From a virus, in IMG/VR virus record IMGVR_UViG_3300017714_002608, positions 1 through 25,117 of that record: a DNA stretch of 25,117 nucleotides; one strand, 5' to 3'. Below the pieces are notes generated by a model. It did not search any database. It worked only from the letters and a program-made list of their open reading frames with translations, and was not told the origin of the DNA. Position 1 is the stretch's first letter, and every line of letters starts with the position of its first letter. Shown here piece after piece: positions 8,003 to 22,821 of the stretch. Position numbers and translations under genes: made by a program.

Positions 8003-8022
8003 CCTATTATTGAATACTTGTG

Positions 8023-8670
8023 ATGGAAGTAAGGGATAAATTATTTGAGATATATGGTGACCTAACTCCTGTCGAACTTCCTAATTGGTTATCCCCTACC
8101 ATAGAAGATAAGAAATCTTGTATAAAATCATATGTATGGAGGACTGATCGTCTCCGCAGAATAAGACTTTGTGAGTTGCACATATCTGGAAAGTTTATTG
8201 CCGAGTCTCTTGTTATATATCCAGACTTCCAATATGAAGCGCCAATATTTGGAACGGAATATGTAAAATGTGGTAGCGTAAAATATTTTGGTACAATTGA
8301 TTTTCACCCACTAAAGGGTGGCAATAATTATCAAGAAAAGTATATCATACCATACCTAGGAGATCAACAAGATAGAATAAAAAATAAATCAAAAATTTAT
8401 GATTTAGATACATACTTCTCAAAAAAACTCTGGATCAAATCAGATCAACAAGATTTTTATGGAGAGTACATAGATAAATTAGATTTATATCTCACAAGAT
8501 ATAAAGAATGCATAAAAAAATGTGAGCAAAATCATACTGCTCACATCTTCCAAAAAGGTTATGATCACCACCTATCATACACAGATCCTGCATACGGAAT
8601 TATAAAGTCATACTATACAAAGGAATTTGCTAGAAAATATATCAACAACTTCTTATTTGACCTTGCCTAG
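8023..8670 (+). CDS. Ferredoxin-dependent bilin reductase (PebB/PebS/HY2 family)
   Basis: A 215-aa protein; cyanobacterial and phage bilin reductases are about 230-250 aa. It reduces a biliverdin-type tetrapyrrole using ferredoxin electrons to make a phycobilin. The family pattern is visible: SYVWRTDRLRRIRLCELH (36-53), YPDFQYEAPIFGTEYV (66-81), IDFHP (92-96) and the C-terminal YTDPAYGIIKSYYTKEFARKYINNFLF (from 186). Asp93 and Asp188 fall where the two catalytic aspartates of PebS lie, by memory alignment. The N-terminal half reads more like PebB/HY2 than PcyA, but the product cannot be fixed. It is one of only two plus-strand genes. There is no clear ribosome-binding site; a GTG one codon upstream is possible. 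The stop shares CTAG with the converging gene. Confidence 0.88.
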   Translation: MEVRDKLFEIYGDLTPVELPNWLSPTIEDKKSCIKSYVWRTDRLRRIRLCELHISGKFIAESLVIYPDFQYEAPIFGTEYVKCGSVKYFGTIDFHPLKGGNNYQEKYIIPYLGDQQDRIKNKSKIYDLDTYFSKKLWIKSDQQDFYGEYIDKLDLYLTRYKECIKKCEQNHTAHIFQKGYDHHLSYTDPAYGIIKSYYTKEFARKYINNFLFDLA

Positions 8671-8900
8671 ACAAGTTTTTGTTCTCGGAGATACTTTACA
8701 GTCTCAGTACATCCACCAATAGTCTTATCATCTACGAGAACTTGTGGGAACGTAGTTCCTCTACCAAACTTCTCGTAGAATTCTTGCCGATCATAATCAC
8801 GATCAAGTTTATATACAACATACTTTACTTCAGCAAGTTGCATGACTTGCTCGACCTTTGTGCAGTAAGGACAAAAGTCTTTGGAATAAACAGTGAACAT
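8667..8900 (-). CDS. Glutaredoxin (CPYC type)
   Basis: A 77-aa protein with the complete glutaredoxin pattern: MFTVYSKDFCPYC (Cys10 and Cys13), TTFPQV with the cis-proline (about 51-56), and GGCTET (glutathione-binding GG and following residues, about 63-68). It reduces disulfides with glutathione and may supply electrons to a phage ribonucleotide reductase. I chose the ATG at 8900 rather than an upstream in-frame start because that start lies inside the virion gene before it. It follows that gene by seven bases. Its stop codon and that of the converging bilin reductase overlap in one CTAG. Confidence 0.94.
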   Translation of the reverse strand: MFTVYSKDFCPYCTKVEQVMQLAEVKYVVYKLDRDYDRQEFYEKFGRGTTFPQVLVDDKTIGGCTETVKYLREQKLV

Positions 8901-8907
8901 AGTAAAA

Positions 8908-10488
8908 TTAGATTCCGAATACGATCCACCCGTTGGATGCATCAGTGTAAATTAATTCAAAAGATGCTCCTTCAGTCTCTACTGTGAGATCAGAAGCATC
9001 TCCCATAATATTACTACCATTTCTATTAACGGTCAAGGTATTGGCGTCAGCAGCCTTCTTATAATCAATAATCCTAACCTTATCTCCTTGAGTAGGAGAT
9101 GATGGCAAGGTTAAAGTCCAGGTTCCACCAGACATGTCAGCAAAAACTGTAGTGAATGAATCAATAGTTGTATTATTACTCAGTGTTCTGAAGTTTTTAT
9201 CAACACCAAGAGCAGGCATCCATCGGGTAAGAGATGAGTTCCATACCTCAAGGTCACCTGTTACGGTATTACCTCTAAGTTGAGGAGTTGTAACTGTACC
9301 AACACCAATTTGACCCTTAATAAGCAGATCACCATTCGCTGCAATGTTACCACCTGCCATAACAGCAGTGGTTGCTGCACCAATTATAACCTGAGTTTGA
9401 GTGGCTCCAGTACCCACACGACCGATGGTTGCAATACCACTAGTACCATTACTCAGATCAATTTGATTTCCTATAATAGTATCGGCGGAGTAAACGTATC
9501 TCCACTTCTTACCGTCTTGACCTAAATCAAATGAATTAGTTGTGCCAGGAGTAACGTTAGAGTTAACATTAGCATCAAGAACAACTGCGTTCTCAGTACC
9601 AACACCAGTGTTAACTGTACCACCTTGGAAGGTTACTGTACCTGTAAACGTAGATACCCCAATAACCCCAAGGTTCTGCTGAACAGTAAGGTCATCAGTT
9701 ATATTAACATCAGTAAGTTCTGTACTACCAACTACCTTCAGAGACTTGCCTGCAGGACTAGTAACACCAATAGATACTGCTCCCTTCACATAAGCATCTT
9801 GAGATTGCAGTGTCGCGCCAATGCCAACGTCTCCACTAAAGGCAGTAAAGTTCTCATAAAATCCGCTGAGAACAAAGTTTACCATCGGCTCAGAAGATCT
9901 GATGTAGATAACATCTCCACCAGATGCTCTTAAATCAACTCTAGAGTGAGTAGATCCCCGCTCTACAATGTAATTGTACTCAAGATAGTCTGTTGCAGTT
10001 GTTCCAAGACCAACTCTGACCTTAGTATCGAATGATCCTCTATTACAAACAAACAGATTACCTTTGAACTGCTTATAGTCTGTAGGAATAGTGAATAGTA
10101 AGGTACTGTTGTTGGCATTTGCCGCAGAGAATCCTTGTGCAAGGAATCCAGCATCCTCTCTATCCTCAGTCTCTGTGCCGAGAAGAGTAAACGTTACGCT
10201 AGTATGATCAGCACGTACAATTACACTCTCACCATCAGCAAAATATATAGTATCAGACTCAAAGTATTCATTAGGAGCAAGCATCCTATCAAATACAATA
10301 TACCCCTTAGTGACATCAAAGTCAGATGCAGTACCCGTAGAGAGTCCTACGCGAAACTTAATTTCACTACTGGTTTGATTCGTTATATATACTTTACTTT
10401 CAACCAACTTGCCAGCGGGAGCGGTGTACAATACTTCGTTTTTTCCCGCTAAGGATGGTGTTATTATTGCTAATGATCCAGAAGCCAT
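8908..10488 (-). CDS. Virion structural protein, probably fibre or baseplate-attached
   Basis: A 526-aa protein rich in Thr, Gly, Ser, Val and Asn. Two similar beta-rich units open it: VLYTAPAGKLVESKVYITN...KFRVGLSTG (about 19-105) and LLFTIPTDYKQFKGNLFVCN...KVRVGLGTT (about 130-210), an internal duplication. The middle (about 220-420) is a repetitive GIG/GVG/TGTVT beta region with VGIG-type turns and FDLGQDGKKWRYVYSADTI, typical of long phage fibres. The last about 75 residues (TLTLPSSPTQGDKVRIIDY...GDASDLTVETEG...NGWIVFGI) recur at the end of the protein at 24502. A late box precedes it at 10522. It very probably forms part of the particle; the exact position is not known. Confidence 0.82.
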   Translation of the reverse strand: MASGSLAIITPSLAGKNEVLYTAPAGKLVESKVYITNQTSSEIKFRVGLSTGTASDFDVTKGYIVFDRMLAPNEYFESDTIYFADGESVIVRADHTSVTFTLLGTETEDREDAGFLAQGFSAANANNSTLLFTIPTDYKQFKGNLFVCNRGSFDTKVRVGLGTTATDYLEYNYIVERGSTHSRVDLRASGGDVIYIRSSEPMVNFVLSGFYENFTAFSGDVGIGATLQSQDAYVKGAVSIGVTSPAGKSLKVVGSTELTDVNITDDLTVQQNLGVIGVSTFTGTVTFQGGTVNTGVGTENAVVLDANVNSNVTPGTTNSFDLGQDGKKWRYVYSADTIIGNQIDLSNGTSGIATIGRVGTGATQTQVIIGAATTAVMAGGNIAANGDLLIKGQIGVGTVTTPQLRGNTVTGDLEVWNSSLTRWMPALGVDKNFRTLSNNTTIDSFTTVFADMSGGTWTLTLPSSPTQGDKVRIIDYKKAADANTLTVNRNGSNIMGDASDLTVETEGASFELIYTDASNGWIVFGI

Positions 10489-10553: not shown

Positions 10554-11357
10554 ATGATCATTTTAACTGGGTCCTCTGGATTCATTGGTAGACATTTTGC
10601 AGAGAGACTAAAAGATGATGTAATGTTAGTAGACCAAGAAGATGCTTGGAGACTATTTAGAGATTTTGACGAGTGGAATAAAGTAGATCTAGTTATTCAT
10701 CAAGGTGCAATATCTTCTACTACAGAAAAAGATTTACAAAAATTGTGGCACTTTAATGTAGGATTCTCATGTGCTCTCTTAAATAAAGCGATTGTATATG
10801 AGTTCCCAATTAAGTATGCATCGTCCGCATCAGTCTATGGGAATCAAAGCGTATATCAAAAATCTAAAACCTACAATCCTCTCAATCAATATGCAATCTC
10901 AAAGTTGCAGATAGATTATACTGTTATGGATAACATAGATCAGTTCTCCTTAGTTCAAGGATTCAGATACTTTAATGTGTATGGAAGTGGAGAAGAAGGT
11001 AAAGGCAATCAAGCAAGTCCAGTAAGTAAATTCACTAAAGAAGTTAAAGAAACTGGAGAATTAAATTTATTTAGTGGATCTAATAAATTCCTAAGAGATT
11101 TTATATGTGTAGATGATGTTGTAGATATTGTTCTGCACAACAATGCAGGTAGTGGCATTTATGATCTCGGCACTGGATCTCCAGTATCATTCCAGCACAT
11201 TGCAGAACTGGTAACAAAAAAAGAGGGTGGCAAAATTAATACCATCCCATTTCCTGATCACTTGAAGGGCAAATATCAGTCCTACACATGTGCAGATATG
11301 TCATGGGCAGGACAATATAAATTTAAGACTGTTGAGGAATATCTACAAGTAAATTAA
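10554..11357 (+). CDS. hldD: ADP-L-glycero-D-manno-heptose 6-epimerase (HldD-like)
   Basis: A 267-aa short-chain-type epimerase; cellular HldD is about 310 aa. HldD converts ADP-D-glycero-beta-D-manno-heptose to the L-glycero form, the donor used in LPS core synthesis. Visible are the nucleotide-binding GSSGFIG (6-12), SSASVYG (90-96), catalytic Y113xxxK117 (YAISK), RYFNVYG (138-144), GKGNQAS (149-155, where HldD has its second catalytic lysine), RDFICVDD (181-188) and the HldD-like IPFPDHLKGKYQSYTCAD (231-248). The last stretch separates HldD from general UDP-sugar epimerases. It is alone on the plus strand and converges on the sugar operon, overlapping its last gene by 35 bases. It is shortened mostly in loops before and after the Tyr-Lys pair. 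Confidence 0.86.
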   Translation: MIILTGSSGFIGRHFAERLKDDVMLVDQEDAWRLFRDFDEWNKVDLVIHQGAISSTTEKDLQKLWHFNVGFSCALLNKAIVYEFPIKYASSASVYGNQSVYQKSKTYNPLNQYAISKLQIDYTVMDNIDQFSLVQGFRYFNVYGSGEEGKGNQASPVSKFTKEVKETGELNLFSGSNKFLRDFICVDDVVDIVLHNNAGSGIYDLGTGSPVSFQHIAELVTKKEGGKINTIPFPDHLKGKYQSYTCADMSWAGQYKFKTVEEYLQVN

Positions 11358-11937
11358 AACTAACTGTTCTACGCTCTGAAATACATTTTTGTTTGACCAC
11401 CCAATGCATCAGTTTACTATCAAACAAAAATGTTTTACCATTAACTTGTTCTGGTCTGTGATGCTCATTGTTCCAAATAAATTCCAAAGAATGTAAATCA
11501 TACCAGTCAGATTCCTTTGGCAAATCTAAAATAGTAATCCCCGATATATGCCCTGCATGGTCATGTGGAGGGGTATAATTATTTTCATAGTATCTATTTA
11601 CCCAGGCATCAACAAATAAATCAGAAAACTGAGAGGTATTAAAGTATACTTGTGCGCTGTCAACATTATGTACTTTTAAATACTCTACCGCAGCACCAGC
11701 GATAAACTTTGTAAATCCAATATCATCCAGTTGTTGACCAGTCATGTATATAATTTCAAATCCTCTAGACAACAAGTCAGGAAAACCCTCAACCTTACTG
11801 TACTTGGAAGAGCAAATATCTTTAGTCTCCTGATTCATATCATCAACAAAAGTATTAAACTTCCTGAGAACATTATCAGGACACATGCATTCTAAAATGT
11901 ATGGACCAAAAGGTCTTGTCAAGTCAATATCGTACAT
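11323..11937 (-). CDS. Putative Fe(II)/2-oxoglutarate oxygenase
   Basis: A 204-aa protein. The metal-binding region reads YTPPHDHAGHISGITIL (121-137), with His125 and His127 where HxD/HxH is expected and the PPHxHxGxxSG form of the 2OG-FeII_Oxy_5 type. The distal His is in LFDSKLMHWV (His178) and the 2-oxoglutarate Arg is in ERRTVSFNLLV (Arg189 or 190). An HxH instead of HxD facial triad is unusual but occurs in this phage group. It is the last gene of the minus-strand sugar operon, starting as TAATG with the cupin gene, so it was probably recruited to hydroxylate or otherwise oxidise the product of that pathway. Substrate unknown. Confidence 0.72.
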   Translation of the reverse strand: MYDIDLTRPFGPYILECMCPDNVLRKFNTFVDDMNQETKDICSSKYSKVEGFPDLLSRGFEIIYMTGQQLDDIGFTKFIAGAAVEYLKVHNVDSAQVYFNTSQFSDLFVDAWVNRYYENNYTPPHDHAGHISGITILDLPKESDWYDLHSLEFIWNNEHHRPEQVNGKTFLFDSKLMHWVVKQKCISERRTVSFNLLVDIPQQS

Positions 11938-12290
11938 TAATCACCTTTAATAATTCTATAACTATCAGAATCAAAATGTTCAGTAGAGAATTCAAATAGT
12001 TCTGAATCTTCTAATGCAACCATTTGATGCTTCAATCCAACTGGGATATGAAATTTATCTCCAGGTTCTAAGACAAGTAGATCAGCAGTTGCTAGATCAT
12101 TATCCCATCCATGATACACAGATAACAATCCACTTTGAAGATAAAATGTTTCATCCTTCACTTTATGATAATGCCAAGAGCATCTAAAACCTTTCTTAAA
12201 GAATAAAAGTTTGCCACAATAATCTTCGGTATTACAAATCCACTTCTCATATCCCCAACCCTTAGGAACATATTTAATTGAAGAAGTCAT
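11937..12290 (-). CDS. Single-domain cupin (sugar-phosphate isomerase type)
   Basis: A 117-aa protein starting MTSSIKYVPKGWGYEKWI. The first cupin motif is WHYHKVKDETFYLQSG (39-54), with metal ligands His40, His42 and Glu47; the second is LEPGDKFHIPVGLKHQM (74-90), with His88. The PKGWGYE opening plus KDETFY is typical of small mannose-6-phosphate isomerase-like cupins found in capsule and LPS clusters. It could isomerise a sugar phosphate or bind a sugar nucleotide. The ATG at 12290 overlaps the end of the phosphatase gene by 17 bases. It forms TAATG with the next gene. Fold is firm; reaction is not. Confidence 0.8.
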   Translation of the reverse strand: MTSSIKYVPKGWGYEKWICNTEDYCGKLLFFKKGFRCSWHYHKVKDETFYLQSGLLSVYHGWDNDLATADLLVLEPGDKFHIPVGLKHQMVALEDSELFEFSTEHFDSDSYRIIKGD

Positions 12291-12621
12291 TAGAATTAAC
12301 CGCTTTATCATCTATGTAGTAATCAGCAGAGGGTTTACCCATAATAAGTTCGTGATACTTACATCCCCACATCTTTAACTGACACTTGGTAAGTTCTTCC
12401 CAACGATGACCAGCAAGAGTAGCATTTCCCTTGTATGTCCCCATACCTCTTGCAGTAAAGTATTTAATATAATGACCTTCATCATAAAGTTTATTTACTG
12501 CTTCAATATTTTTTGTGATTGGAGAAGATGCCTCATACTTACATGTCTTACATAGACTGTCCTGCTCAGCAATTACACCATCAATATCAACAACATATGT
12601 TTTAGATTCAAATACTGTCAT
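12274..12621 (-). CDS. HAD-type phosphatase, capsule-biosynthesis-like
   Basis: A 115-aa minimal HAD phosphatase. Motif I is VVDIDGVIA (Asp12 nucleophile, Asp14 acid), motif II is YFTAR (Thr56), motif III lysine is in MGKPSA (Lys96) and motif IV is YYIDDKA (Asp104, Asp105). PITKNIEAVNKLYDEGH is the usual helix between I and II. Small HADs of this type sit in polysaccharide and heptose clusters. It may supply the GmhB step (D-glycero-D-manno-heptose bisphosphate to 1-phosphate), but it is shorter than GmhB (about 190 aa) and lacks an obvious zinc site; Cys24 and Cys27 form one CxxC only. The start overlaps the upstream stop as ATGA. Confidence 0.8.
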   Translation of the reverse strand: MTVFESKTYVVDIDGVIAEQDSLCKTCKYEASSPITKNIEAVNKLYDEGHYIKYFTARGMGTYKGNATLAGHRWEELTKCQLKMWGCKYHELIMGKPSADYYIDDKAVNSNDFFN

Positions 12622-13715
12622 CTCTCTTTACCCAGGTATAAGGTTTTTAATTTATGTCTAGAAGTAGATTTAGTAGCAAAATAGTAATTTATTTTTGCCA
12701 ACCCTATGGACGTACCAGCATCTGTTGATATTGGTTCCACATATAGTTTAACACCCTTCGGTAAGATTTTCAAATACTCATAATTAGCAACACAATTCAA
12801 AGCACAACCACCAGTAAGAACTATGTTGGTCTCACCAGTCACTTCTAATGTTCTGAGAATTAAGTTTGACATATATCTTTCAAAATCTTTTTGAACTCTA
12901 TAAGCAAGGTTGGAGAACTTAACTTTAAGTTCATCATCAAGATCTATAAAGTTATTCACACCTCTCGGATATCTTACATATTCATATGGCAAAAACGTAA
13001 GTCCAAACCTATTTCTACAAAATAAATTAGTGTCTAAAGTAAAGTCATCATTAACAAAAGGTTTTATGTTTTCATCTTCCACACCATATGAAGATAACCC
13101 CATCAATTTACCAGAACCAAAGTCACCAAATCCAAAGTACTTTGATAGTGAATGATAAACCATACCAATACCAAAAGACAAATCATACTTATCAGCATCT
13201 AAGTATGTCGGAGTTAATCCAACACTATGCTTTTTGAATTGACTTGGATATGTACAAGAGAATATTGTCTCAACTTCTTGAACTTCTTTTTTATTTGGTA
13301 GAGGATTACCCATCCCATCGACAACTAAAACTGCTGCTCTAGCAAATCCAGAATTGTAAAACCCACAAGCAGCATGGAAGTCATGATGCAGTTCATAAAG
13401 CTCATATTGAATATCCTCAGAATCTCTTACGGATATTTCTTTTGCATATCTCTTTGATAATATACGAGTAAAAAACTCTGCATGATTTTTTAAATAATCT
13501 TTGTTATGTGGTTCATACAAACCAGATACTTGAATTTTCTTGTGTATATCTGGAGATATATCTATTTCCATGACTGATGTCAACGGATCAACGTCATGCT
13601 TGATTCCACTGTATCTCTCTTCCTCAATAAACCAATCAATCTCTCCACCAGTAACCTGACAAATAGATGCATCATGACTTACATGAGCACCAAGATAAGA
13701 GTACTTCTTCAACAT
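12618..13715 (-). CDS. Carbamoyltransferase with only the Kae1-like domain
   Basis: A 365-aa protein matching the N-terminal domain of the NodU/TobZ family: SHDASIC (13-19), EEERYSGIKHD (31-41), the HHxxHAA metal site as HHDFHAA (110-116), LVVDGMG (130-136), KLMGLSSYG (203-211) and LTGGCALNCVANY (300-312). It stops at LKTLYLGKER, the position equivalent to KLENLYTGLSYM in the full-length copy at 16955, that is, exactly at the domain border. The YrdC-like domain with GxxEAGxRALGNRSI, which makes carbamoyl-AMP, is absent. It is a clean gene with ATGTTGA and ATGA overlaps with both neighbours and a GGAG before its start, not a decaying fragment. It may depend on carbamoyl-AMP from a full-length partner. 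Confidence 0.84.
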   Translation of the reverse strand: MLKKYSYLGAHVSHDASICQVTGGEIDWFIEEERYSGIKHDVDPLTSVMEIDISPDIHKKIQVSGLYEPHNKDYLKNHAEFFTRILSKRYAKEISVRDSEDIQYELYELHHDFHAACGFYNSGFARAAVLVVDGMGNPLPNKKEVQEVETIFSCTYPSQFKKHSVGLTPTYLDADKYDLSFGIGMVYHSLSKYFGFGDFGSGKLMGLSSYGVEDENIKPFVNDDFTLDTNLFCRNRFGLTFLPYEYVRYPRGVNNFIDLDDELKVKFSNLAYRVQKDFERYMSNLILRTLEVTGETNIVLTGGCALNCVANYEYLKILPKGVKLYVEPISTDAGTSIGLAKINYYFATKSTSRHKLKTLYLGKER

Positions 13716-14488
13716 AAGATCATCTCCACATCATTATCTGTTAAGGTATAACAACCATAATTTTGCACTGCAATTGCAGATGCTCTATTTGCAATTCTAA
13801 TAGCAGTGGTGATGTCCTGATACTGTAAGAAAGAATATGCCAAAGCTGCTAAGAATGTATCCCCAGCACCAACAACATCAAATACCTTCACCTTCTCAGC
13901 AGGATATACATTTCCTTGATGCACCACACCATTCTCACCCAAAGTAACAATCAGTTGATTTTCATCAGGTTTCACTGTCAATTTATTATACTCCCTTTGA
14001 TTTATCTTAAAGAACACATTTGGATAAGTAAAGAGTTCTGTCTTCTTTGTATCAATAAAAACAGGACCATCAAAATTTTGACAAAAGACTTCTAAATCCT
14101 TTTTAGATAAGTATCCCTTATCATAGTCAGATATTACAACAGCATCATACTGCATATGAACGAATGCAGATTTAACTTCAGATACTTTAAGAGAATCTAT
14201 ATCCTCTTCTTCATCTATCCTCAATAGTTGTTGGTTACTACTACTATCAACAATTCTTCTTTTAATAATTTGTTTTTTATTTGTGATATGATTTACACTG
14301 ACACCAAAAGACTCTAGATTTGCCTTAACATTGGCAGACATGCCCTTTGAAGTTATTGTTTTACCATACTTCAATACAGGGATCGGTGCTTCTGGACTAA
14401 TTCTTTCTACATCACCGTAGACATACTCATCATTACACGTCTCCCCTAGTAATAATATCTTGAATTGTTTTTGTTGTTGCATAATCAT
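13709..14488 (-). CDS. hldA: D-glycero-beta-D-manno-heptose 7-phosphate kinase (PfkB family)
   Basis: A 259-aa protein corresponding to the N-terminal kinase half of bifunctional HldE (about 315 aa there). It phosphorylates heptose 7-phosphate at position 1. Visible are ILLLGETCNDEYVYGDVERISPEAPIPVLK (11-40), where RISPEAP is a strong HldE/RfaE signature, a modified GMSANVKANLESFG (49-62), QQLLRID (86-92), SDYDKG (120-125) and the PfkB GAGDTF (207-212, catalytic Asp210). About 20 residues seen in HldE between the NQRE segment and the last strands are missing. The start (ATG 14488 or 14482) overlaps the upstream adenylyltransferase gene by about 55 bases, the longest overlap in the operon. That could be the remnant of a split HldE fusion. 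Confidence 0.87.
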   Translation of the reverse strand: MIMQQQKQFKILLLGETCNDEYVYGDVERISPEAPIPVLKYGKTITSKGMSANVKANLESFGVSVNHITNKKQIIKRRIVDSSSNQQLLRIDEEEDIDSLKVSEVKSAFVHMQYDAVVISDYDKGYLSKKDLEVFCQNFDGPVFIDTKKTELFTYPNVFFKINQREYNKLTVKPDENQLIVTLGENGVVHQGNVYPAEKVKVFDVVGAGDTFLAALAYSFLQYQDITTAIRIANRASAIAVQNYGCYTLTDNDVEMILC

Positions 14489-14840
14489 TTATTCTACTAA
14501 AGAATACTAACTCAGAAACGTACATGGATCCAATAACAGACTTACCTCGCCAATCAGATCCAACAACCATTACATCGGGTTGAATAAAATTAATCAGTGC
14601 TTCTAATTCAAAATCAGAATCAAACAAATGTACTTTATGTACTGATTTTAAATTTTCCAAGAAGAACTTTCTTTCTTCTTGATTATATATCGGTCTAGAT
14701 GGTCCCTTCTTTTCAGACACCCTACGATCAGTATCTATGCCTACGTAAACTTTATCACCAAGAGACTTTGCAAAGTTTAAAAGTTCTAAATGTCCACGAT
14801 GAAGTAGATCAAATGTACCATTGACAAAAACTTTTCTCAT
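14433..14840 (-). CDS. hldC: Heptose 1-phosphate adenylyltransferase (HldC/HldE C-terminal type)
   Basis: A 135-aa cytidylyltransferase-fold enzyme. FVNGTFDLLHRGHLELL (5-21) contains the HxGH nucleotide-binding motif (His14, His17). KGPSRPIYNQEER (45-57), DVMVVGSDWRGKSVIGS (89-105) and YATTKTIQDI (120-129) correspond to the ISTxK-like end of RfaE-type proteins. It joins AMP from ATP to heptose 1-phosphate, giving ADP-heptose. In most bacteria it is fused behind the kinase; here it is a separate gene placed before the kinase. The start overlaps the upstream stop as TCATGA. A glycerol-3-phosphate cytidylyltransferase (TagD) is the main alternative, but the adjacent heptose kinase favours HldC. 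Confidence 0.87.
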   Translation of the reverse strand: MRKVFVNGTFDLLHRGHLELLNFAKSLGDKVYVGIDTDRRVSEKKGPSRPIYNQEERKFFLENLKSVHKVHLFDSDFELEALINFIQPDVMVVGSDWRGKSVIGSMYVSELVFFSRINDYATTKTIQDIITRGDV

Positions 14841-15457
14841 GAAAAAATTCTCTGCGTGTCGTGTTCAGATAACATAAAACTAAAGACCCATAAAATTCTA
14901 TTTGTTTTACCAATGATCTCATCAACCTGATGCTCTGCAGAAGATACAATATACATCAAAAGATCTGTATCATTAACTTCCCAGGGTTCACCATCAATAA
15001 TAGTGACACCACCAGATTCTGGTTTTTGAGTTATAAAGTTACAATGAACGGTATGAGTTTCTTCAAACCATACAGGATCTATATGTGGATGAACTGTTCC
15101 ACCCTCAAAACTAATCTCTGTAATTATACCATTCTTTCCAACAGGTGACAATCCAAAATTTCTAAAGTCAAAAGTTTCAACAATACTACTCTGTATCTCA
15201 TGAACCACATCTGGGTACTTAAAATTTGGATTAGATGATGCTGCGAAGTTGCCATGATCCTGATTCTCTATAAAGGGATTCATGTAATTCACCAGAGGAT
15301 TGGCAAACCTAGTTGTTAATTTTGTATCCCTAATAAAATTAGAATCCATTCTAGGATCCATAAAGTGATCACTCTTATAATTTTGTGTGGTCCACAAATT
15401 TAATTGATCCCTTTGATCCTCAGTGATAAAATCTTTGAATGCTTTTACTAATTTCAT
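14837..15457 (-). CDS. Putative Fe(II)/2-oxoglutarate oxygenase
   Basis: A 206-aa protein. ISFEGGTVHPHIDPVWFEETHTVHCNFI contains the facial triad HxD (His125, Asp127). GGVTIIDGEPWEVNDTDLLMYIVSSAEHQVDEI supplies the distal His176. TNRILWVFSF carries the 2-oxoglutarate Arg187. The layout resembles aspartyl/asparaginyl hydroxylase-like and phage 2OG oxygenases. It lies between the halogenase and heptose adenylyltransferase genes with ATGA overlaps on both sides, so it is almost certainly co-translated with them and probably acts in the same pathway. Which carbon it oxidises is unknown. Confidence 0.78.
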   Translation of the reverse strand: MKLVKAFKDFITEDQRDQLNLWTTQNYKSDHFMDPRMDSNFIRDTKLTTRFANPLVNYMNPFIENQDHGNFAASSNPNFKYPDVVHEIQSSIVETFDFRNFGLSPVGKNGIITEISFEGGTVHPHIDPVWFEETHTVHCNFITQKPESGGVTIIDGEPWEVNDTDLLMYIVSSAEHQVDEIIGKTNRILWVFSFMLSEHDTQRIFS

Positions 15458-16968
15458 TTTACACCATGACCAGAATAATAATCTATCCCCAAACTATCAC
15501 CCCTTTTTATTTTTATTAAGCACTGCTGAATCCACTCTCGATGTAGGATTGACTTCTTATGCTTTTCTATTTCCTCATTATAAAAATTTTCTACAAGAAT
15601 CCTTGCTTGATCAGTATCAACACCATCATTTTTTGGTTCAACTAATTCCTTATCTAAAAATTGAAGAATGAACATTGCCCAATTTTCTCCCTGGAACATA
15701 AAGTCACCCGAGACTGGAAGTGTATATGGATTATTCAAAGTCTCATTCTCATAAAACTTTTGAGTCTCTGACATTTTAAAAGTATCTTGAACATACTTCC
15801 AAAACTTTCCAGTCTCTCTCTTATTGTGAGAGTAATGCATACTTACAAAATCAATACAGTCTTCATAGAAATGAATCATCTTCATATTGAATAGTTCTGC
15901 ATCAAGATCATTATAGCAATGTCCCTTTACTGCTTCTACAATCTCAATTGCACCTGCACATATCAATGCAATCCCAGTGCTTTCTAATGGTTCAATAAAT
16001 CCACTAGACAATCCATTACAACAAACATTATCAACCCAAGAATTTTTATGGTAATAAGGTGTCCAATTTAAAACCTTTAGTGTATCCCTATTAACTCTAC
16101 CATCCCAATAGTCAACGAAGAAATCTTTAGCTTCATCAATATCTGTAACAGATTTATTAAATACTAGTCCTGTCCCAATTCTACTTTGATTTGGAGTCTT
16201 CCAAATCCAACCATGTTCTACAGCAGAGCATGTTGTATATGGTCTCATCTCAGAATCCATATCAATATACTGAACAGGACCAGCAATAGCAGTGTCGCAA
16301 AATAATCTACCAGTACAATCCACACTATCTGGTTCTGACCCCAATAGTCTTCTCCAACCAGTACAGTCAATAAACAAATCAGATTCAATTACCTGTCCAT
16401 CCTCAAGAGTGATAGAATTTAATCCCCCTTTTGAATTTCTATCAACATCTTTTACACCACATTTAACAAAACTAATTTTATTCGCAATCCTTTCCTTTAT
16501 ATAATTAACTAACTTGCCACAGTCAATATGATATGAATAGGTTGATATATTATCTGGATCAACTTTATTCTCTGTTACTCCTGGATTATATAATGCACAA
16601 GCATGAGTAAAATATTCAAGATCTTTATTCTTAGTCCAAAGATTTAAAAGATTAGTTTCAAGGAAATTAAATTCGGGGAAAGCAAATGGATGCCATAAGT
16701 TTTGACCTTCTTTTTGCCAGTCTTCAAAAAGAATACCACCTTTAAATGTAGCATCAATTTTACCTAACCAATCTTCAATTTCAAATCCACATCCCACCAT
16801 AAACTGTTTGAAGCTAAGAATCGTCGCTTCACCAACCCCCACTGCCTCACTCTCAGATTTATCAATGAGAACTATTTGTGTACGTTTTAATTTTGCCTGC
16901 AAAAAAGCAGCGGTCATCCATCCAGATGTACCGCCACCAACAACAACAATACGATTAATTGGTCTCAT
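15454..16968 (-). CDS. Flavin-dependent tryptophan-type halogenase
   Basis: A 504-aa protein, close to the usual about 530 aa. The FAD-binding GGGTSGWMTAA (11-21) and VGVGEATI (43-50) are intact. The catalytic lysine matches DATFKGG (Lys76, PrnA Lys79 equivalent). The WxWxIP motif that blocks monooxygenation is GWIWKTP (253-258), with Ile to Thr. The catalytic glutamate lies in EPLESTGIALI (Glu329). These enzymes add chlorine or bromine to indole or phenol rings using reduced flavin, so a flavin reductase must come from the host. None is in the window. It sits inside the sugar operon between carbamoyltransferase and oxygenase genes. Halogenase homologues are known in other cyanophages with unknown substrates. 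Activity as hydroxylase or on another aromatic group is possible. Confidence 0.93.
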   Translation of the reverse strand: MRPINRIVVVGGGTSGWMTAAFLQAKLKRTQIVLIDKSESEAVGVGEATILSFKQFMVGCGFEIEDWLGKIDATFKGGILFEDWQKEGQNLWHPFAFPEFNFLETNLLNLWTKNKDLEYFTHACALYNPGVTENKVDPDNISTYSYHIDCGKLVNYIKERIANKISFVKCGVKDVDRNSKGGLNSITLEDGQVIESDLFIDCTGWRRLLGSEPDSVDCTGRLFCDTAIAGPVQYIDMDSEMRPYTTCSAVEHGWIWKTPNQSRIGTGLVFNKSVTDIDEAKDFFVDYWDGRVNRDTLKVLNWTPYYHKNSWVDNVCCNGLSSGFIEPLESTGIALICAGAIEIVEAVKGHCYNDLDAELFNMKMIHFYEDCIDFVSMHYSHNKRETGKFWKYVQDTFKMSETQKFYENETLNNPYTLPVSGDFMFQGENWAMFILQFLDKELVEPKNDGVDTDQARILVENFYNEEIEKHKKSILHREWIQQCLIKIKRGDSLGIDYYSGHGVK

Positions 16969-18757
16969 TATTTTTAATGTTGATCATTTTACTGTACTCA
17001 GGTAAATATAAGTATTCAATTCCAGACTTTGCCAGAGTTCTACAAGCATCATCTAAAGTCTCAACTAACGGTTCTCCACCAAGATTAAAAGATGTATTAA
17101 AAATAATTGGACATCCAGTCTTCTTGTAGAAGGTTTCAATCAGATCATGATAATGTAAGTTTTGCTCTTTAGTTACCGTTTGAATTCTACAAGTGCCATC
17201 AACATGAATGATCGATGGAATCTTTTCTTCAATTCCATCTTGACATCTGACTGCATACATCATAAAAGGAGTCTCGTCCATACCACGGAGGTCAAACCAA
17301 TCATGAACATGTTCTTGAAGAATTGATCCTGCAAAGGGACGGAAGTATTCTCTTCTCTTAATCTCATTGACATGATCTTTACCATTGGGATCTCTAGGAT
17401 CATACAAAATAGATCTATTTCCAAGAGCACGGGGTCCCGCTTCAGACCTACCTTGGAACATTGCCACAATATTCTTATTGGTAATCAGTTCAACTACATC
17501 TTCATGAGTGGCGTCAGTTACAGAATCAGCATTATACTTATCTGCTGATCTTAAAATTTCGTCATCAGTGTACATATAAGAAAGTCCAGTATAAAGATTT
17601 TCAAGTTTTCCTCTAACATCCGTACTACCAGTTACCCTATGATATTGCAGAAGTGCAGCACCAATAGCAGTTCCAGCATCATTACTAACTGGTTCAACAA
17701 ACAAATTAATACCTTCATCTTTTAATTGATCAAGATACCAATAATTCGCAACACAATTCAGACCATAACCACCAGAGAGAACAACATTCTTATTGCCACT
17801 AATATCAACTGCCTTACGAATGAGATCTAAGACCATTTGCTGCGATTCAGTTTGAATAGCATATGCAAGGTCTCTGCGATTCTCAAGCAGAGTTAGATCA
17901 TCACAATCTGGTGGAGTGTAAAGGGATTCATATCTACCTTCATTTACAACTGCACCATTAGGATAAGTAGGAACAATAACATTTCTATCAGCAGTCTTCC
18001 ATGATCCACCACCACCATCAGTGTAGATTGTAGGGACATTCTCATTAGGTTTCCCATATGGGAAAAGACCCATGGTCTTACCAGCTTCAATGGGTTGCCA
18101 TCCACAATATTGTGTTACCGCTTCATATGCCTTGGTGATTCCAGCACTCTCATCAAGAATAAACTCATGAGTTCCTTCTTCACCTTCACTCGTACTATCC
18201 ATCTCTTCGATTCTAGCAGATCCCCATGGTCCTCGACCCGCTTGATGCTTATATAGTGTCTTAAACTCTGAGGGATAGTCACATGAGAAGATAGTCTCAA
18301 GCTCCCAAGTCATCTCCTGGTCCATACCAATATTCATCGGCACAAAAGTTCCTGCCCCATCAACAACAAGTCCAACAGCACTTTCAAAACCCGACCGATA
18401 AAATGCACAAGCAGCATGCAATTTATGATGAGTTCTACTTAAATCAATAACTTGAGGATGATCATGAGGATCGACATGCCTATCAATCAATCCCAACTTT
18501 CTTGCCAAACCAGTGTACATATCGTCACCAGTAAAATCAATTGACCCTGCCTGACCCAAAGGTTGGGTGTGTGCAATCACAAGATAATCTAAACGATCAG
18601 TATATTCAAGAATTTTTACCATGGACGCTAATGGTCCACCATCATATTTACTTCTAGATAGTCTCTCCTCCTCAATAGATAAAACTAATTCACCATTGTG
18701 AAGTAGACACACTCCAGAGTTATGTCCACGGGCAATTGCTGCAATCCATTCTGACAT
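16955..18757 (-). CDS. Carbamoyltransferase (NodU/TobZ/CmcH family), full length
   Basis: A 600-aa protein with both domains. The Kae1-like domain has RGHNSGVC (10-17), EEERLSRSKYDGG (29-41), the metal site HHKLHAA (110-116), LVVDGAG (130-136), GKTMGLFPYG (226-235) and LSGGYGLNCVANY (327-339). The YrdC-like domain has GRSEAGPRALGNRSI (436-450), KRREYFRPFA (467-476), HVDGTCRIQTV (518-528) and NTSFNLGGEPLV (554-565). It is predicted to make carbamoyl-AMP and carbamoylate a sugar hydroxyl. It is the second gene of the operon, ten bases after the glycosyltransferase, and its end overlaps the halogenase start. It is closer to the single-domain copy at 12618 than to the one at 6339 in the metal-site region. 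Confidence 0.94.
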   Translation of the reverse strand: MSEWIAAIARGHNSGVCLLHNGELVLSIEEERLSRSKYDGGPLASMVKILEYTDRLDYLVIAHTQPLGQAGSIDFTGDDMYTGLARKLGLIDRHVDPHDHPQVIDLSRTHHKLHAACAFYRSGFESAVGLVVDGAGTFVPMNIGMDQEMTWELETIFSCDYPSEFKTLYKHQAGRGPWGSARIEEMDSTSEGEEGTHEFILDESAGITKAYEAVTQYCGWQPIEAGKTMGLFPYGKPNENVPTIYTDGGGGSWKTADRNVIVPTYPNGAVVNEGRYESLYTPPDCDDLTLLENRRDLAYAIQTESQQMVLDLIRKAVDISGNKNVVLSGGYGLNCVANYWYLDQLKDEGINLFVEPVSNDAGTAIGAALLQYHRVTGSTDVRGKLENLYTGLSYMYTDDEILRSADKYNADSVTDATHEDVVELITNKNIVAMFQGRSEAGPRALGNRSILYDPRDPNGKDHVNEIKRREYFRPFAGSILQEHVHDWFDLRGMDETPFMMYAVRCQDGIEEKIPSIIHVDGTCRIQTVTKEQNLHYHDLIETFYKKTGCPIIFNTSFNLGGEPLVETLDDACRTLAKSGIEYLYLPEYSKMINIKNNETN

Positions 18758-18766
18758 ATTAAAACC

Positions 18767-19906
18767 TCACTTAAGTTTTTGAAGAATATCTACTGTGTTT
18801 GCTTTGGATTTACCAAAACCTTTGTTAGTTACATCAAATTTAGACGTATCTGCTGATCTTAAATCTAACTGCGGCAACTTACTAATTTCTTGTTGTTTGT
18901 TTCCAGGTGATGCTGAACAAGATGAATAATCTTGTTGTGGAATAGTATAATTTCCAGTATATCCAACGGATTTACCCATCCTATTTTTGACCGACTTGAC
19001 AACAGAATCAATCTGTTCTTCACTCATCTCCATTGCTTCATCGTTAAGTCTATCTTTAATCTCATCGATTGCAACTCTGATTGGAGAATAAACTCTTTTA
19101 CCCTCTCCAATGTCAATGATATCAAAGTCTTTATGGTCGGGATAAGAAATATTTACAGGGAATGTTGAACCTGTAACTACAGTAGCAGTCTTATCAAGTG
19201 CTCTTGCAATATGCTGACCCATACTATCACACCCAAGAAGATGGTCAGCAGCATTAATAACACCTGCCCAGATTCTCATGTCACTGATCTGAGGTCTAGC
19301 AACTTTATATCTTGCTTTATCTTCATTCTCTTCCAGAGGGAAGTGAATCTCACTCATGATAACGACAGCATATTCTTTCTTCAATTCATTAATGATATTG
19401 ACAATATTATTAACAGAAAAACTCCTAGAAGAAGTATCAATGATAAAGTCTTGTCCCACCTGCTCTATAGATCTACCAAACGGTTGAACTACTAAAACCT
19501 TATCTTTACCTGTCCCTGCTTTTACTTCCTCAACAATATTAAATCCTTGAACTATTTCTGCTTTGTTCAGAACTACAGTTGGTTTAGGAAGTTCTCTTGG
19601 TTCATCAAGTTCATTGATGAGAATATCAAATGCTTGTGCAAGACTACACTCTTGATTGTAATAATGCCAACATCTATAAGGTTCTGGACTAACACATTCT
19701 CTATGCTTAATCTCGTTTTCAAACAAACCCTTATGCCAATTATCAAAAACTTTTGTAGATAAAGTTGGATGACCTTTAAAGAAGTCGGTGCCTCCTTCGC
19801 ATACAATAACAAAATCGTCATGCGTTTCCGCATACTTTTCAAATGCGGGGATAGCACAAATTACTCGACCAGCTCCACCGTTGATGAAGAACGCTTTAGA
19901 CCTCAT
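18767..19906 (-). CDS. GT9-like (heptosyltransferase-type) glycosyltransferase
   Basis: A 379-aa protein. The two-domain GT-B pattern of family GT9 is recognisable: an N-terminal FINGGAGRVICAIPAFEKYAE (7-27, equivalent to the G-D-x-x-x-x-x-P loop of heptosyltransferases), LVVQPFGRS (138-146) and GCDSMGQHIARALDKTATVVTGST (225-248), which matches the D-S-x-x-x-H-x-A-x-A-L nucleotide-sugar site. GT9 enzymes transfer heptose from ADP-heptose, so it is the natural user of the pathway encoded downstream. A Ser/Gln-rich tail after about residue 325 is extra. It is the first gene of the sugar operon, 55 bases after the late box at 19961, with a GAGG before the start. The acceptor is unknown and a related GT-B family cannot be excluded. 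Confidence 0.7.
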   Translation of the reverse strand: MRSKAFFINGGAGRVICAIPAFEKYAETHDDFVIVCEGGTDFFKGHPTLSTKVFDNWHKGLFENEIKHRECVSPEPYRCWHYYNQECSLAQAFDILINELDEPRELPKPTVVLNKAEIVQGFNIVEEVKAGTGKDKVLVVQPFGRSIEQVGQDFIIDTSSRSFSVNNIVNIINELKKEYAVVIMSEIHFPLEENEDKARYKVARPQISDMRIWAGVINAADHLLGCDSMGQHIARALDKTATVVTGSTFPVNISYPDHKDFDIIDIGEGKRVYSPIRVAIDEIKDRLNDEAMEMSEEQIDSVVKSVKNRMGKSVGYTGNYTIPQQDYSSCSASPGNKQQEISKLPQLDLRSADTSKFDVTNKGFGKSKANTVDILQKLK

Positions 19907-19960: not shown

Positions 19961-19968
19961 TATTTATC
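19961..19968 (-). promoter_or_regulatory. T4-type late promoter box before the sugar operon
   Basis: GATAAATA on the minus strand, 55 bases upstream of the ATG at 19906. It lies inside an inverted repeat (TTTGATT/AATCAAA, 19953-19977). A second 6-bp hairpin (TGCTAT/ATAGCA, 19934-19949) lies between it and the gene. Late expression of the cassette is inferred. Confidence 0.6.
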
Positions 19969-19972: not shown

Positions 19973-20674
19973 TCAAAAAAACATTATTTGAGTGAGACGA
20001 TCATATTCCGTATACATACCAGGTTGCATGATAGCACCATGCACCACATTTGCATCATAGAGTATCGCTCTATTATACTTCATTGGGCACACATATTGCA
20101 ACTTTGGTTTAGGTTTTGGATTATCTTCCGTTGGGTTTTGAACTGTACAGAATCCAGTTCCTGGTACAGAATTCTCTTCACCATACTCTTCAGGAGTATT
20201 TAAAAATACTAAAGAAGCCCACTTATTATATGGTCCATCAACGTGGTATATGTCATCCCACCTACCAGAGTCAACAATCTCCTTGTCATTTGTAACATTA
20301 ACAACAAATCGCATTAACTTCCATTTATTTGTAAAGTGCTCTTCATCAAATTCAATATGCCAATCCTCATGATTACATAGTTGTTTGAATACCCCCGATA
20401 GTTGAAGATATAATTCATCTAGAATTTCAGGTTCCTCTCTCCATACTCTTCTACCTATTGCACCAGAAAGACGTTTTTTATCAGTATATAAAGGAGAATC
20501 CAATGCTAGTTGTCTAACTTCATCTGGATTTTTATAAAAATTATCTATCACAAATATGGGTTTACTTATAATCTCTCTTGTATCATAATACACTCTCCCA
20601 TCTTCTAAGGCATCCCATCGCATTTCTTTGATGTTGTCCTTCATCACTCCTAGGTCAGAATTAACTTCAAACAT
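19973..20674 (-). CDS. Fe(II)/2-oxoglutarate oxygenase-like protein (DUF6445-like)
   Basis: A 233-aa protein. PIFVIDNFYKNPDEVRQLAL (39-58) and the core DDIYHVDGPYNKWASLVFLNTPEE (140-163) give the metal pair His144 and Asp146. NRAILYDANVVHGA gives His212 and YDRLTQIMFF gives Arg226. The PDEVRxLAL opening and GTGF segment are typical of DUF6445 proteins, a 2OG-oxygenase-like family, as recalled from memory. The start forms TAATG with the upstream gene, another oxygenase, so the two are probably coupled. Substrate unknown. Confidence 0.76.
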   Translation of the reverse strand: MFEVNSDLGVMKDNIKEMRWDALEDGRVYYDTREIISKPIFVIDNFYKNPDEVRQLALDSPLYTDKKRLSGAIGRRVWREEPEILDELYLQLSGVFKQLCNHEDWHIEFDEEHFTNKWKLMRFVVNVTNDKEIVDSGRWDDIYHVDGPYNKWASLVFLNTPEEYGEENSVPGTGFCTVQNPTEDNPKPKPKLQYVCPMKYNRAILYDANVVHGAIMQPGMYTEYDRLTQIMFF

Positions 20675-21207
20675 TATAGCAAAGGTATAGCACCAAAATT
20701 TTTAGTAGGTAAAGTAGGAAGAGTATGATCTTCCCTAGACATAATATCAAATCCTAAAGTTATTCTTTTACCAGAATACTTTCTTAAATTTACAACTCTA
20801 TGTGCATGTTTACCAGGACCAAAATATATGTTACCACATTCATTATCAATAGTCCAATCCTCAAATTCGGTTGCAGTATCCTGAGGTTCTATGGATATGT
20901 AACCATGCCACAATGCCTTATGATTATGCCACCCAAGCACACCATCATAGTCTTGGTAGTTTAACCAAGACTGAATCCAGAGAATGCTTTCGGGCAATTG
21001 TTCTCTTACAATTTCCCTAACCTTTTCATAAATTCTATACATGTGTATAGAAGGAGAAGATACCCCAAAGATATTATAGTCAGTGTAAGCCCCCGTGGAA
21101 TCGGAAAGACCATTACTCACTATGTGATCATGGGATATCTTCAGTTCTGTTATTATTTCTTGTTGGTTCTCTTTAATATAATCAAAGTTATACAGAATAT
21201 AATTCAT
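20674..21207 (-). CDS. Putative Fe(II)/2-oxoglutarate oxygenase
   Basis: A 177-aa protein. WLNYQDYDGVLGWHNHKALWHGYISI (81-106) supplies His94 and His96 at the HxD position (HNH). GNIYFGPGKHAHRVVN supplies the distal histidine (His134 or His136), and YSGKRITLGFDIM supplies the 2-oxoglutarate Arg148. The pattern matches phage 2OG-FeII_Oxy-type proteins like the one at 11323, which also has HxH. It is the first gene after the gap at 21208-21244. The downstream gene is coupled through TAATG. Substrate unknown. Confidence 0.68.
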   Translation of the reverse strand: MNYILYNFDYIKENQQEIITELKISHDHIVSNGLSDSTGAYTDYNIFGVSSPSIHMYRIYEKVREIVREQLPESILWIQSWLNYQDYDGVLGWHNHKALWHGYISIEPQDTATEFEDWTIDNECGNIYFGPGKHAHRVVNLRKYSGKRITLGFDIMSREDHTLPTLPTKNFGAIPLL

Positions 21208-21244: not shown

Positions 21245-21964
21245 CTATTCAGGATCGGGTTTGCCTGCCGCTGCGTCAGCGTACTTGGTCGCTGCACTTG
21301 GTTGAGTTGGGAACATGTGCGTAGCAATGTTAGGATCAATGCCTGCAAGATTTGTTGGCATATCTCTAAGTTTTTGTCTATACGCAGTCCATTCTGCTTT
21401 AAGTGCATCAGGAGCATCTGCAGGGAGATTGTTATCACTGGCATCAAGAGTTTTATCTCTTACCAGTTTAATATCCTCCCAGGTAACATCTCTCTCAGTT
21501 CCACAAATAGCTTCGCTTACAGATCTAGTTTTAACTACTATCTTACCAGTCTTAAGGTCCTTACTTACTTCTGAAGCCTCATAGATGTCGTTAGGTTTTG
21601 CTGGTGTCCAAACCATTAGACGGTCATATCCCTCGATAGCAGGGGATTGTGAATGAGGAGTAGAAGGTTCATCATACTCTACTTGTTTAGCGTCATCAAT
21701 TGGTCCTCTTAATTGACAGATAAGAGGGTCGGTAGAACAATCTACTTCAAACCACTCTGCAACGTCCTCAGGAACAGGTCTACCGTCCACAATATCTTCT
21801 TCGGTTAAAGGACCGTACTTCTCTTTACCATCTGCACCCAGTTGGAGCCAGATTTTATCTGGACCATGGTACGTAAATTTACGTGTTTTTCCTGCAGACT
21901 GAGAATGGTCTACTTGGTATTCATTGGGGAGACCCAGATCAAATTCTATAGAAACTTGTGCCAT
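21245..21964 (-). CDS. Putative tail fibre assembly or tail-associated protein
   Basis: A 239-aa protein. The C-terminal part, WEDIKLVRDKTLDASDNNLPADAPDALKAEWTAYRQKLRDMP (162-203), resembles the tail-fibre-assembly chaperone domain (R-D-x-x-L...W..YRQ.LRD-P) found at the ends of fibre-chaperone proteins of many phages. Here, unusually, a long N-terminal part with several short beta-rich segments precedes it (IEFDLGLPNEYQVD, DKIWLQLGADGKEKYGPLTEEDI). A CSTDPLIC segment (76-83) holds two cysteines. A late box, TATAAATA, lies 40 bases upstream. It sits at the end of the run of three Cys/Gly-rich adhesin-like genes, fitting a role in their assembly or attachment. Confidence 0.65.
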   Translation of the reverse strand: MAQVSIEFDLGLPNEYQVDHSQSAGKTRKFTYHGPDKIWLQLGADGKEKYGPLTEEDIVDGRPVPEDVAEWFEVDCSTDPLICQLRGPIDDAKQVEYDEPSTPHSQSPAIEGYDRLMVWTPAKPNDIYEASEVSKDLKTGKIVVKTRSVSEAICGTERDVTWEDIKLVRDKTLDASDNNLPADAPDALKAEWTAYRQKLRDMPTNLAGIDPNIATHMFPTQPSAATKYADAAAGKPDPE

Positions 21965-22003
21965 GGTTATTACTACTTAAAAAGGTTGACTTACTTTTAA
22001 TAA

Positions 22004-22011
22004 TATTTATA
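22004..22011 (-). promoter_or_regulatory. T4-type late promoter box
   Basis: TATAAATA on the minus strand, a perfect T4 late box, overlapping the stop codon of the 22007-22795 gene and 40 bases before the gene at 21964. Confidence 0.75.
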
Positions 22012-22795
22012 GGAAACTAATCTTAACTAATCCAGGACCGCCAGTGGCTCCCTTGGCGCAGCAGCTACTACCACCACAATAGGTAGTCATACCACCCTGT
22101 CCACCGTGTCCATATGGAGATGTCCAGCAACCACAACGCTGCCAACACTCATGGATTTGAGCTTGAACTTGTGTACCAATAAATGGTGCAGGAGTTGGAG
22201 CGTGTGCTTGACAATGGCAATGACACTCAGCGATGTGACCATTGAATGCACCTCTATGGTTACCCATTCCAAAGTCACCACCATGAGCATTAGGATCCAC
22301 ACAACAGCGACCCCAGTCAGAGTGGCAAGCAGTGTTCCAAGAACCATTAGCACAACCACCAGTGCCACCGAGAGCACAGAAGTTAGACAGTCCAGTACCA
22401 TTAACGTAAGATGAACATCCATCACACGCCACACATTCAACACTCTCGCATGGATAAGTACCACCAGCGCAAACTGTGTATGCATCGCCAGCAGTTACTG
22501 TAATAGTTTTGCTGTTATAGTATCCACCTTGAGCACCAGCAAAGTGCTGACATCTACCAGTAGAACATGCGCCATGTCCATTGCCACCTGCGCCCCACAT
22601 TTCAAAATGAACTTTTCTTACACCTGCAGGAATAGTCCAAAGACAGCAACATCCTGTTGAGCAACGATTAGGAGATCCAAAAATCCACTTGACACACCAA
22701 GTGTCAAACACTCCAGTAGCAACAGCAGATTGTGGGATACTGCCATCAACTATGGATGCTGTTAAGATTTTTTTATAGCTAGAGTAAGATGCCAT
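22007..22795 (-). CDS. Cys/Gly-rich adhesin-like virion protein (paralogue 1)
   Basis: A 262-aa protein with about 26 cysteines (10 percent), often in CCC, CxC or CC clusters. Order: MASYSSYKKIL... start, STGCCCLWTIPAGVRKVHFEMWGAGGNGHGAC (47-77), the glycine-rich fold opening seen in phage Gly-rich tip domains, then QHFAGAQGGYYNSKTI, ECVACDGCSSYVNG, GNHRGAF, HCHC, ECWQRCGCW and a C-terminal GGQGGMTTYCGGSSCC...GGPGLVKISFL. There is no signal peptide. It is one of three tandem paralogues, about 60 percent similar by eye, in the tail-gene region, so I infer a particle-surface adhesin. The many cysteines may form a disulfide or metal-bound network once outside the cell. A late box precedes it. 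Confidence 0.8.
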   Translation of the reverse strand: MASYSSYKKILTASIVDGSIPQSAVATGVFDTWCVKWIFGSPNRCSTGCCCLWTIPAGVRKVHFEMWGAGGNGHGACSTGRCQHFAGAQGGYYNSKTITVTAGDAYTVCAGGTYPCESVECVACDGCSSYVNGTGLSNFCALGGTGGCANGSWNTACHSDWGRCCVDPNAHGGDFGMGNHRGAFNGHIAECHCHCQAHAPTPAPFIGTQVQAQIHECWQRCGCWTSPYGHGGQGGMTTYCGGSSCCAKGATGGPGLVKISFL

Positions 22796-22821
22796 CTCTC
22801 GTTAAACCTCGTTATTAATAG

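Follow-up and report, generated by a model that had tools for sequence, protein, structure and literature searches.

In T4-like cyanophages, the gene clusters T4-GC 304, 305, 307 and 308 have been reported to co-occur as 'LPS (lipopolysaccharide) genes' (Sullivan et al., 2010; PMC3037559); the same study lists a halogenase and a carbamoyltransferase, and the word heptose is absent from its text. Heptose genes are mentioned in a 2020 announcement on the phage SynMITS9220M01. Literature searches found no description of a cupin acting as GmhA, the phosphoheptose isomerase, a negative that is weak because it is limited to open-licence papers. The window analyzed here, which is the whole of the IMG/VR record IMGVR_UViG_3300017714_002608 (25,117 bases), encodes what its sequence identifies as a member of this known cyanophage gene block. 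The apparent novelty lies in how the gap left by GmhA is filled: a small cupin (T4-GC 307; 11937-12311, minus strand) is, as its sequence relationships strongly suggest, a non-orthologous phosphoheptose isomerase that takes the place of GmhA.

The block comprises ten minus-strand genes that run leftward from the heptosyltransferase-like gene (18767-19906) to a 2-oxoglutarate (2OG) oxygenase (11323-11937), in the order GT9-like glycosyltransferase, full-length carbamoyltransferase, flavin halogenase, putative 2OG oxygenase, HldC, HldA, short carbamoyltransferase, HAD phosphatase, cupin and 2OG oxygenase. An HldD-like epimerase (10554-11357) lies on the plus strand, convergent with the other genes and overlapping them by 35 nt. 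An earlier note on this DNA had described the whole set, epimerase included, as one co-translated unit on the strength of overlaps of 1-55 bases. With the longest open reading frames (ORFs), eight junctions, from 16968 down to 11323, do overlap (by 14, 4, 4, 56, 7, 4, 38 and 1 nt); the glycosyltransferase and carbamoyltransferase genes are separated by a 9-nt gap, and the epimerase, being on the opposite strand, cannot belong to the same co-translated unit or transcript. Thus, the gene set is genuine but is not a single operon. Judging by its relatives, the cupin likely starts at the second Met, which shortens its overlap with the HAD gene. The note's kinase, adenylyltransferase, epimerase, HAD phosphatase, cupin, halogenase and two carbamoyltransferases were confirmed at the positions it gave.

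Viral loci for comparison were gathered in three sets of up to 80 each, using the cupin, HldA and the carbamoyltransferase. Across 85 distinct viral loci, the common genes from the glycosyltransferase (GT302 hereafter) to HldD occur in the same order, with the cupin and HAD genes inverted in two, so that the arrangement is far beyond chance. The minimal form, found in 27 of the 85, consists of GT302, the carbamoyltransferase of T4-GC 303, HldC, HldA, HAD and cupin, followed by the convergent HldD, with neither halogenase nor oxygenases; most of the others hold inserted halogenase, oxygenase or carbamoyltransferase genes. The proposed ADP (adenosine diphosphate)-heptose-type pathway with GT9-like and carbamoyltransferase genes is therefore kept together in cyanophages, in line with the earlier note, which had also suggested a search for the same order in other contigs. 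Its view of the set as unusual overstated the novelty, because the phage S-SSM7 has nearly the same genes and their linkage was noted in 2010 (PMC3037559). At the nucleotide level, a megablast search for near relatives of the block gave a single 58-nt match. Some contigs assigned by binning to Euryarchaeota, Planctomycetaceae, Rhodobacteraceae or Thaumarchaeota (L009, L010, L011, L012, L015 and L021) also hold phage-type heptose blocks and look like mis-binned phage DNA.

With considerable confidence, we conclude from sequence comparison that the block encodes a heptose pathway. Heptose families are the best NCBIfam matches of the HldA-like heptose 7-phosphate kinase of the PfkB family (T4-GC 305; 13709-14488, minus strand; TIGR02198, 1.3e-45), the HldC-like heptose 1-phosphate adenylyltransferase (T4-GC 304; 14433-14840, minus strand; TIGR02199, 3.2e-30) and the HldD-like ADP-heptose 6-epimerase (T4-GC 308; 10554-11357, plus strand; TIGR02197, 2.3e-63), so the three homologs do not resolve to other sugar pathways. 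Their catalytic motifs are present as well: GAGD in 179 of 180 HldA relatives, HxGH in 171 of 174 HldC relatives, and the Tyr-x3-Lys pair of the window epimerase aligned with Escherichia coli HldD (1eq2, 9e-44). The small HAD protein (T4-GC 306; 12274-12621, minus strand), a probable heptose bisphosphate 7-phosphatase with conserved HAD motifs among its relatives, matches TIGR01689 (1.4e-9) and no GmhB model of NCBIfam. Its database name is 'phosphoheptose isomerase', a role that was considered and rejected because the HAD motifs are present and a SIS match is absent. With no GmhA and a cupin proposed in its stead, the block would be a variant of the ADP-heptose pathway. The earlier note rightly reported GmhA as the one missing enzyme but overlooked the cupin as the likely answer.

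The step in question, from sedoheptulose 7-phosphate to D-glycero-D-manno-heptose 7-phosphate, corresponds, with one more carbon, to the conversion of fructose 6-phosphate into mannose 6-phosphate, which some known cupins catalyze. Seven complete cyanophage genomes contain no GmhA (TIGR00441). Among 54 distinct viral HldA loci with enough flanking sequence, HldC is present in 54, the cupin in 53, HAD and HldD in 47 each, and GmhA in none. Only 35 of 50,697 annotated phage records contain the cupin and, when the hit lists are compared, all 31 marine HldA records are among these; more than 500 viral contig stretches encode it.

A matching pattern is seen in bacteria. Among 192 Patescibacteria genomes, HldA was found in 14, four with the cupin and no real GmhA and ten with GmhA and no cupin; the weak GmhA matches in two genomes (G329 and G351) were read as GlmS because they lie in ORFs of ~600 aa. 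In 353 genomes of one class, there are ten full-length cupin-HldA fusions, only one of which is accompanied by a GmhA match, weak and on another contig, and 13 genomes with unfused HldA (E up to 1e-30), all 13 of which have GmhA. The converse fusion, of GmhA to HldA, is found in G287; GmhB and HldC come after it, and the ORFs ahead of it were read as transketolase and transaldolase. G173 has its genes arranged as cupin, HldA, GmhB, HldC. Thus, beside HldA in Patescibacteria, cupin and GmhA are mutually exclusive and either can be the fusion partner of HldA. The bacterial cupin relatives adjoin true GmhB, and the kinase part of one cupin-HldA fusion exceeds the curated HldA cut-off (351 vs. 345 bits). 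Fisher tests calculated by hand give p = 1/1001 for the exclusion and about 1e-5 for the fusion, values that overstate independence because the genomes are related to each other.

A further link comes from pathway replacement. The GDP (guanosine diphosphate)- and ADP-heptose routes have their isomerase and phosphatase steps in common but use different kinases and nucleotidyltransferases, and between the kinases HddA and HldA only heptose 7-phosphate is shared. In the phages Bellamy and SynMITS9220M01, the cupin is located directly between HddA, a GHMP kinase (NF049969, 7e-83 and 3e-85), and HddC. Three more phage loci with this pairing bring the total to five, and in two loci (L076 and L099) the HAD gene is also retained, between kinase and cupin. 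In SynMITS9220M01, a second HddA-like kinase, with a weaker match, adjoins a SIS protein that weakly resembles GmhA (L315:12574-14024); the two may belong to an additional heptose route. Taken together, the linkage, the exclusion, the fusions and the exchange of pathway point to a second family of phosphoheptose isomerases.

The predicted structure and the motifs are compatible with this role. In Foldseek, the cupin model, with a pLDDT (predicted local distance difference test) score of 93, matches D-lyxose isomerases best, and L-ribose and D-lyxose isomerases are close to the top of a profile search. The protein has a cupin fold, not the SIS domain of GmhA. It contains the HxH...E...H metal site and the KxE motif of metal-dependent cupin sugar isomerases, and H47, H49, K52, E54 and H95 are invariant across 66 aligned sequences. 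In the Thermofilum D-lyxose isomerase, the counterpart of E54 has been proposed to act as the base, and the Lys two positions before it to stabilize the intermediate (PMC8378251). The window cupin scores below the gathering threshold of the D-lyxose isomerase family PF07385 (Lyx_isomer; 13.4 vs. 20.8 bits); weak matches to this family are found in 54 of 59 relatives, and the L142 cupin passes with 26.2 bits. In a phylogenetic tree, the cupins of phages group with every sampled bacterial cupin linked to HldA on one branch with 99/99 support, apart from generic cupins; three members of this group (L018, L013 and L144) have no heptose genes nearby, though.

The first gene of the block (T4-GC 302 / phrog_8954; 18767-19906, minus strand) is very likely a GT9-like heptosyltransferase, as judged from its structure model (pLDDT 84). 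The model has the GT-B fold of GT9 type, and the first 30 Foldseek rows are all GT9 enzymes, including WaaC, WaaF and TibC; DSxGQH is conserved in 126 of 127 relatives. Pfam Glyco_transf_9 gives no match up to E 0.1, so that the earlier GT9-like call is borne out by the model where Pfam is blind. The NodU/TobZ-type carbamoyltransferase of T4-GC 303 (16955-18757, minus strand) has both domains of its family (Carbam_trans_N, 7.9e-26; Carbam_trans_C, 1.1e-60) and directly follows GT302 in 52 of 52 loci. Carbamoylated heptose is present in the Pseudomonas core LPS, where the carbamoyltransferase WapO acts on heptose (PMC8005017).

From protein families, conserved order, the exclusion and fusion pattern and fold matches, all obtained by comparison, we infer the reactions, their order and the acceptor. 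We consider it likely that the block is a late-expressed module that makes an activated heptose, attaches it and carbamoylates it, with the cupin as the isomerase. The cupin would convert sedoheptulose 7-phosphate to D-glycero-D-manno-heptose 7-phosphate by metal-assisted aldose-ketose isomerization, as cupin D-lyxose isomerases do with their own sugars; HldA would then phosphorylate O1, the small HAD protein would remove the 7-phosphate, HldC would add AMP (adenosine monophosphate), and HldD may epimerize C6. The heptose would be transferred by the GT9-like enzyme and O-carbamoylated by the product of the adjacent gene, with the halogenase, 2OG oxygenases and extra carbamoyltransferases providing variable tailoring. 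As acceptor, a virion adhesin or fiber protein made at the same time seems the most likely candidate.

Late expression is suggested by a T4-type late-promoter core, ATAAATA (19961-19967, minus strand), located 55 nt ahead of the GT9-like gene, the probable operon head; we regard this motif as probably heading the operon. The window contains seven such motifs, not above chance in number (10.5 expected), so that only their placement is notable: all are on the minus strand, 19-55 nt ahead of gene starts (GT302 and fiber or structural genes). Of 123 relatives, 42 have the motif no more than 120 nt ahead of GT302 (shuffle expectation 6.4); it occurs before the T4-GC 303 carbamoyltransferase in none of 139, before HAD and HldA in none, and before the cupin and HldC in one each. 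Sigma-70 scans performed no better than shuffles. Upstream lie a tail-assembly-chaperone-like protein and three Gly/Cys-rich fiber-like proteins (21245-24428, minus strand; PF16778, 1.5e-7), candidate acceptors; the latter three resemble one another (22007-24428, minus strand), and the one scanned has no Pfam match. Relatives of these proteins are encoded ahead of GT302 in 73-82 of the 99 loci compared, those of the Gly/Cys-rich ones in about 80. A virion protein, adhesin or fiber, as the acceptor is a tentative proposal, with the chances somewhat short of even.

The most serious alternative, still rather unlikely, is that the module acts not on the virion but on the envelope of the infected host, changing its LPS or capsule, for example to block superinfection or adsorption to debris. 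The genes were termed LPS genes in 2010 (PMC3037559), the LPS heptosyltransferases WaaC and WaaF are among the top structural matches of GT302, and in S-SM2 and S-T4 the genes reside in sugar clusters away from fiber genes. However, the late-promoter motif and the position of the core block between fiber and neck genes, as in the isolates P-SSM2, S-CAM1, S-CAM3, S-SSM7 and Sf-FS3, argue against an envelope target. Moreover, the LPS of marine Synechococcus WH8102 (the host of Sf-FS3) and CC9311 contains neither heptose nor Kdo (3-deoxy-D-manno-oct-2-ulosonic acid), so the usual heptose acceptor is absent (PMC4515613), and TibC, which transfers heptose from ADP-D,D-heptose to adhesins, demonstrates that a GT9 fold can modify such proteins (PMC4358343).

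Several observations weigh against the cupin being the isomerase of a heptose pathway. The HldA, HldC and HldD matches all score under the curated equivalog cut-offs; one viral HldA locus (L227) lacks the cupin; the cupin occurs without HldA in a Woesearchaeota genome (L018); and the bacterial comparison lacks phylogenetic independence. Many cupins tie at Z 14-16 in the fold ranking, and the modeled fold by itself does not pick among cupin reactions. Two Cyanobiaceae-type genomes (G036 and G054) have HldA without GmhA, and the cupin predicted for such genomes was not found in them. SynMITS9220M01 has the cupin together with the weak GmhA-like SIS protein beside the second kinase.

These points leave room for the improbable alternative that heptose 7-phosphate comes from another enzyme (GmhA or a promiscuous isomerase of the host, or a different phage protein) and that the cupin acts on the sugar later, for instance as its epimerase or as a dioxygenase. 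The coexistence in SynMITS9220M01, the equally good fit of cupins with other reactions and the database name of the cupin, 'cysteine dioxygenase', would all agree with such a role. In the presumed host family (151 genomes; the family of the Prochlorococcus single-cell genome G002, taken as a stand-in), a GmhA-like match is present in 37 genomes, including 20 of the 22 with HldA, but absent from 114, and a late-acting cupin would not be expected to exclude GmhA, fuse to the kinase or stay in place when HddA takes over from HldA. That the genes yield a diffusible natural product, a heptose bearing halogen and carbamate, is very improbable: halogenase, oxygenases and carbamoyltransferases are present, and in bleomycin-type clusters genes for heptose-like sugars occur together with a carbamoyltransferase, but the scanned window proteins included no recognizable scaffold-making enzyme, and the halogenase and oxygenases are variable inserts, all lacking in the minimal loci. 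The earlier note had left natural product and decorated glycan side by side; late-promoter motif, fiber-gene neighborhood and modeled GT9 structure fit glycan or glycoprotein decoration better.

Among these inserts, the flavin-dependent halogenase (T4-GC 212; 15454-16968, minus strand) is a predicted tryptophan-type enzyme (PF04820, Trp_halogenase; 1.3e-88, 298 bits), and its alignment with PrnA covers the FAD (flavin adenine dinucleotide) motif and the catalytic Lys and Glu regions (GGGTSGW, ATFKGG and IEPLESTG). A distant halogenase relative lies beyond the epimerase on the opposite strand in four loci (L033, L034, L051 and L058), unlike the usual insert position. Of the two 2OG oxygenases listed earlier, the one at 11323-11937 (minus strand) is backed by PF13759 (5.3e-8) and phrog_81 (1.6e-19), whereas the putative one at 14837-15457 (minus strand) shows HxD...H by eye, has no Pfam match, and has relatives in the same place in a few loci. 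Two more 2OG-oxygenase-like genes precede the glycosyltransferase (19973-21207, minus strand; DUF6445 barely above cut-off, PF13759 weak), the first with a relative in 48 of the 52 carbamoyltransferase loci. The short carbamoyltransferase (12618-13715, minus strand) matches Carbam_trans_N only and has 43% identical relatives of similar length in S-SSM7 and Sf-FS3; it lacks the C-terminal domain that in TobZ presumably makes carbamoyl-adenylate, and may depend on a partner. A third carbamoyltransferase with both domains (6339-7994, minus strand; PF16861, 1.8e-49) lies outside 10554-19906 and directly follows the epimerase in many relatives. Elsewhere, the window encodes a ferredoxin-dependent bilin reductase (8020-8670, plus strand; PF05996, 5.5e-27; ~25% identical to phage PcyA and PebS) and, on visual inspection of the translations, proteins resembling ThyX, an SGNH hydrolase and, in two cases, glutaredoxin (600-1235, 2551-3426, 3404-3640 and 8667-8942, minus strand).

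It is conceivable, if speculative, that cupin phosphoheptose isomerases are a new enzyme family replacing GmhA in phages and some Patescibacteria and that phages thereby put carbamoylated, sometimes halogenated, heptose on their own fiber proteins while the host LPS lacks heptose. If so, a pathway gap would be closed in a module of many cyanophages, a second, unrelated family of phosphoheptose isomerases would be named, two database names (of the HAD protein and of the cupin) would be corrected, and phage glycosylation of its own adhesins with a sugar absent from the host LPS would become testable.

Among known systems, the blocks of S-SSM7, Sf-FS3, P-SSM2, S-CAM1 and S-CAM3 (T4-GC 302-308) share with the window the core genes, their order, the convergent epimerase and the fiber/neck position, although the DNA is distant. 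With S-SSM7, it further shares the halogenase, short carbamoyltransferase and oxygenases; the window differs in the third carbamoyltransferase nearby and in lacking the denV and methyltransferase inserts. The halogenase belongs to the same family as VirX1 (6qgm, E 7e-48), which we take to be a cyanophage halogenase, with PrnA the nearer solved relative. WapO is a known case of a carbamoyltransferase that acts on heptose, in its case in the LPS core. TibC and the other bacterial autotransporter heptosyltransferases share the GT9 fold with GT302 at ~10% identity; TibC has an iron finger, a dodecameric assembly and adhesin acceptors. The bacterial ADP-heptose pathway (GmhA, HldE or HldA plus HldC, GmhB, HldD) likewise includes HldA-, HldC- and HldD-like enzymes with the family motifs, but in the phage block a cupin stands in place of GmhA and a small HAD protein of the EcbF/BcbF type in place of GmhB. 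Finally, the phage cupin resembles cupin D-lyxose/D-mannose isomerases (Thermofilum TsLI, 7nzp; Bacillus subtilis, 2y0o) and the phosphomannose isomerase 7zvy in fold, in metal ligands and in the Lys two residues ahead of the catalytic Glu, and differs from them in its ~25% identity, its shorter length and its heptose-synthesis gene context.

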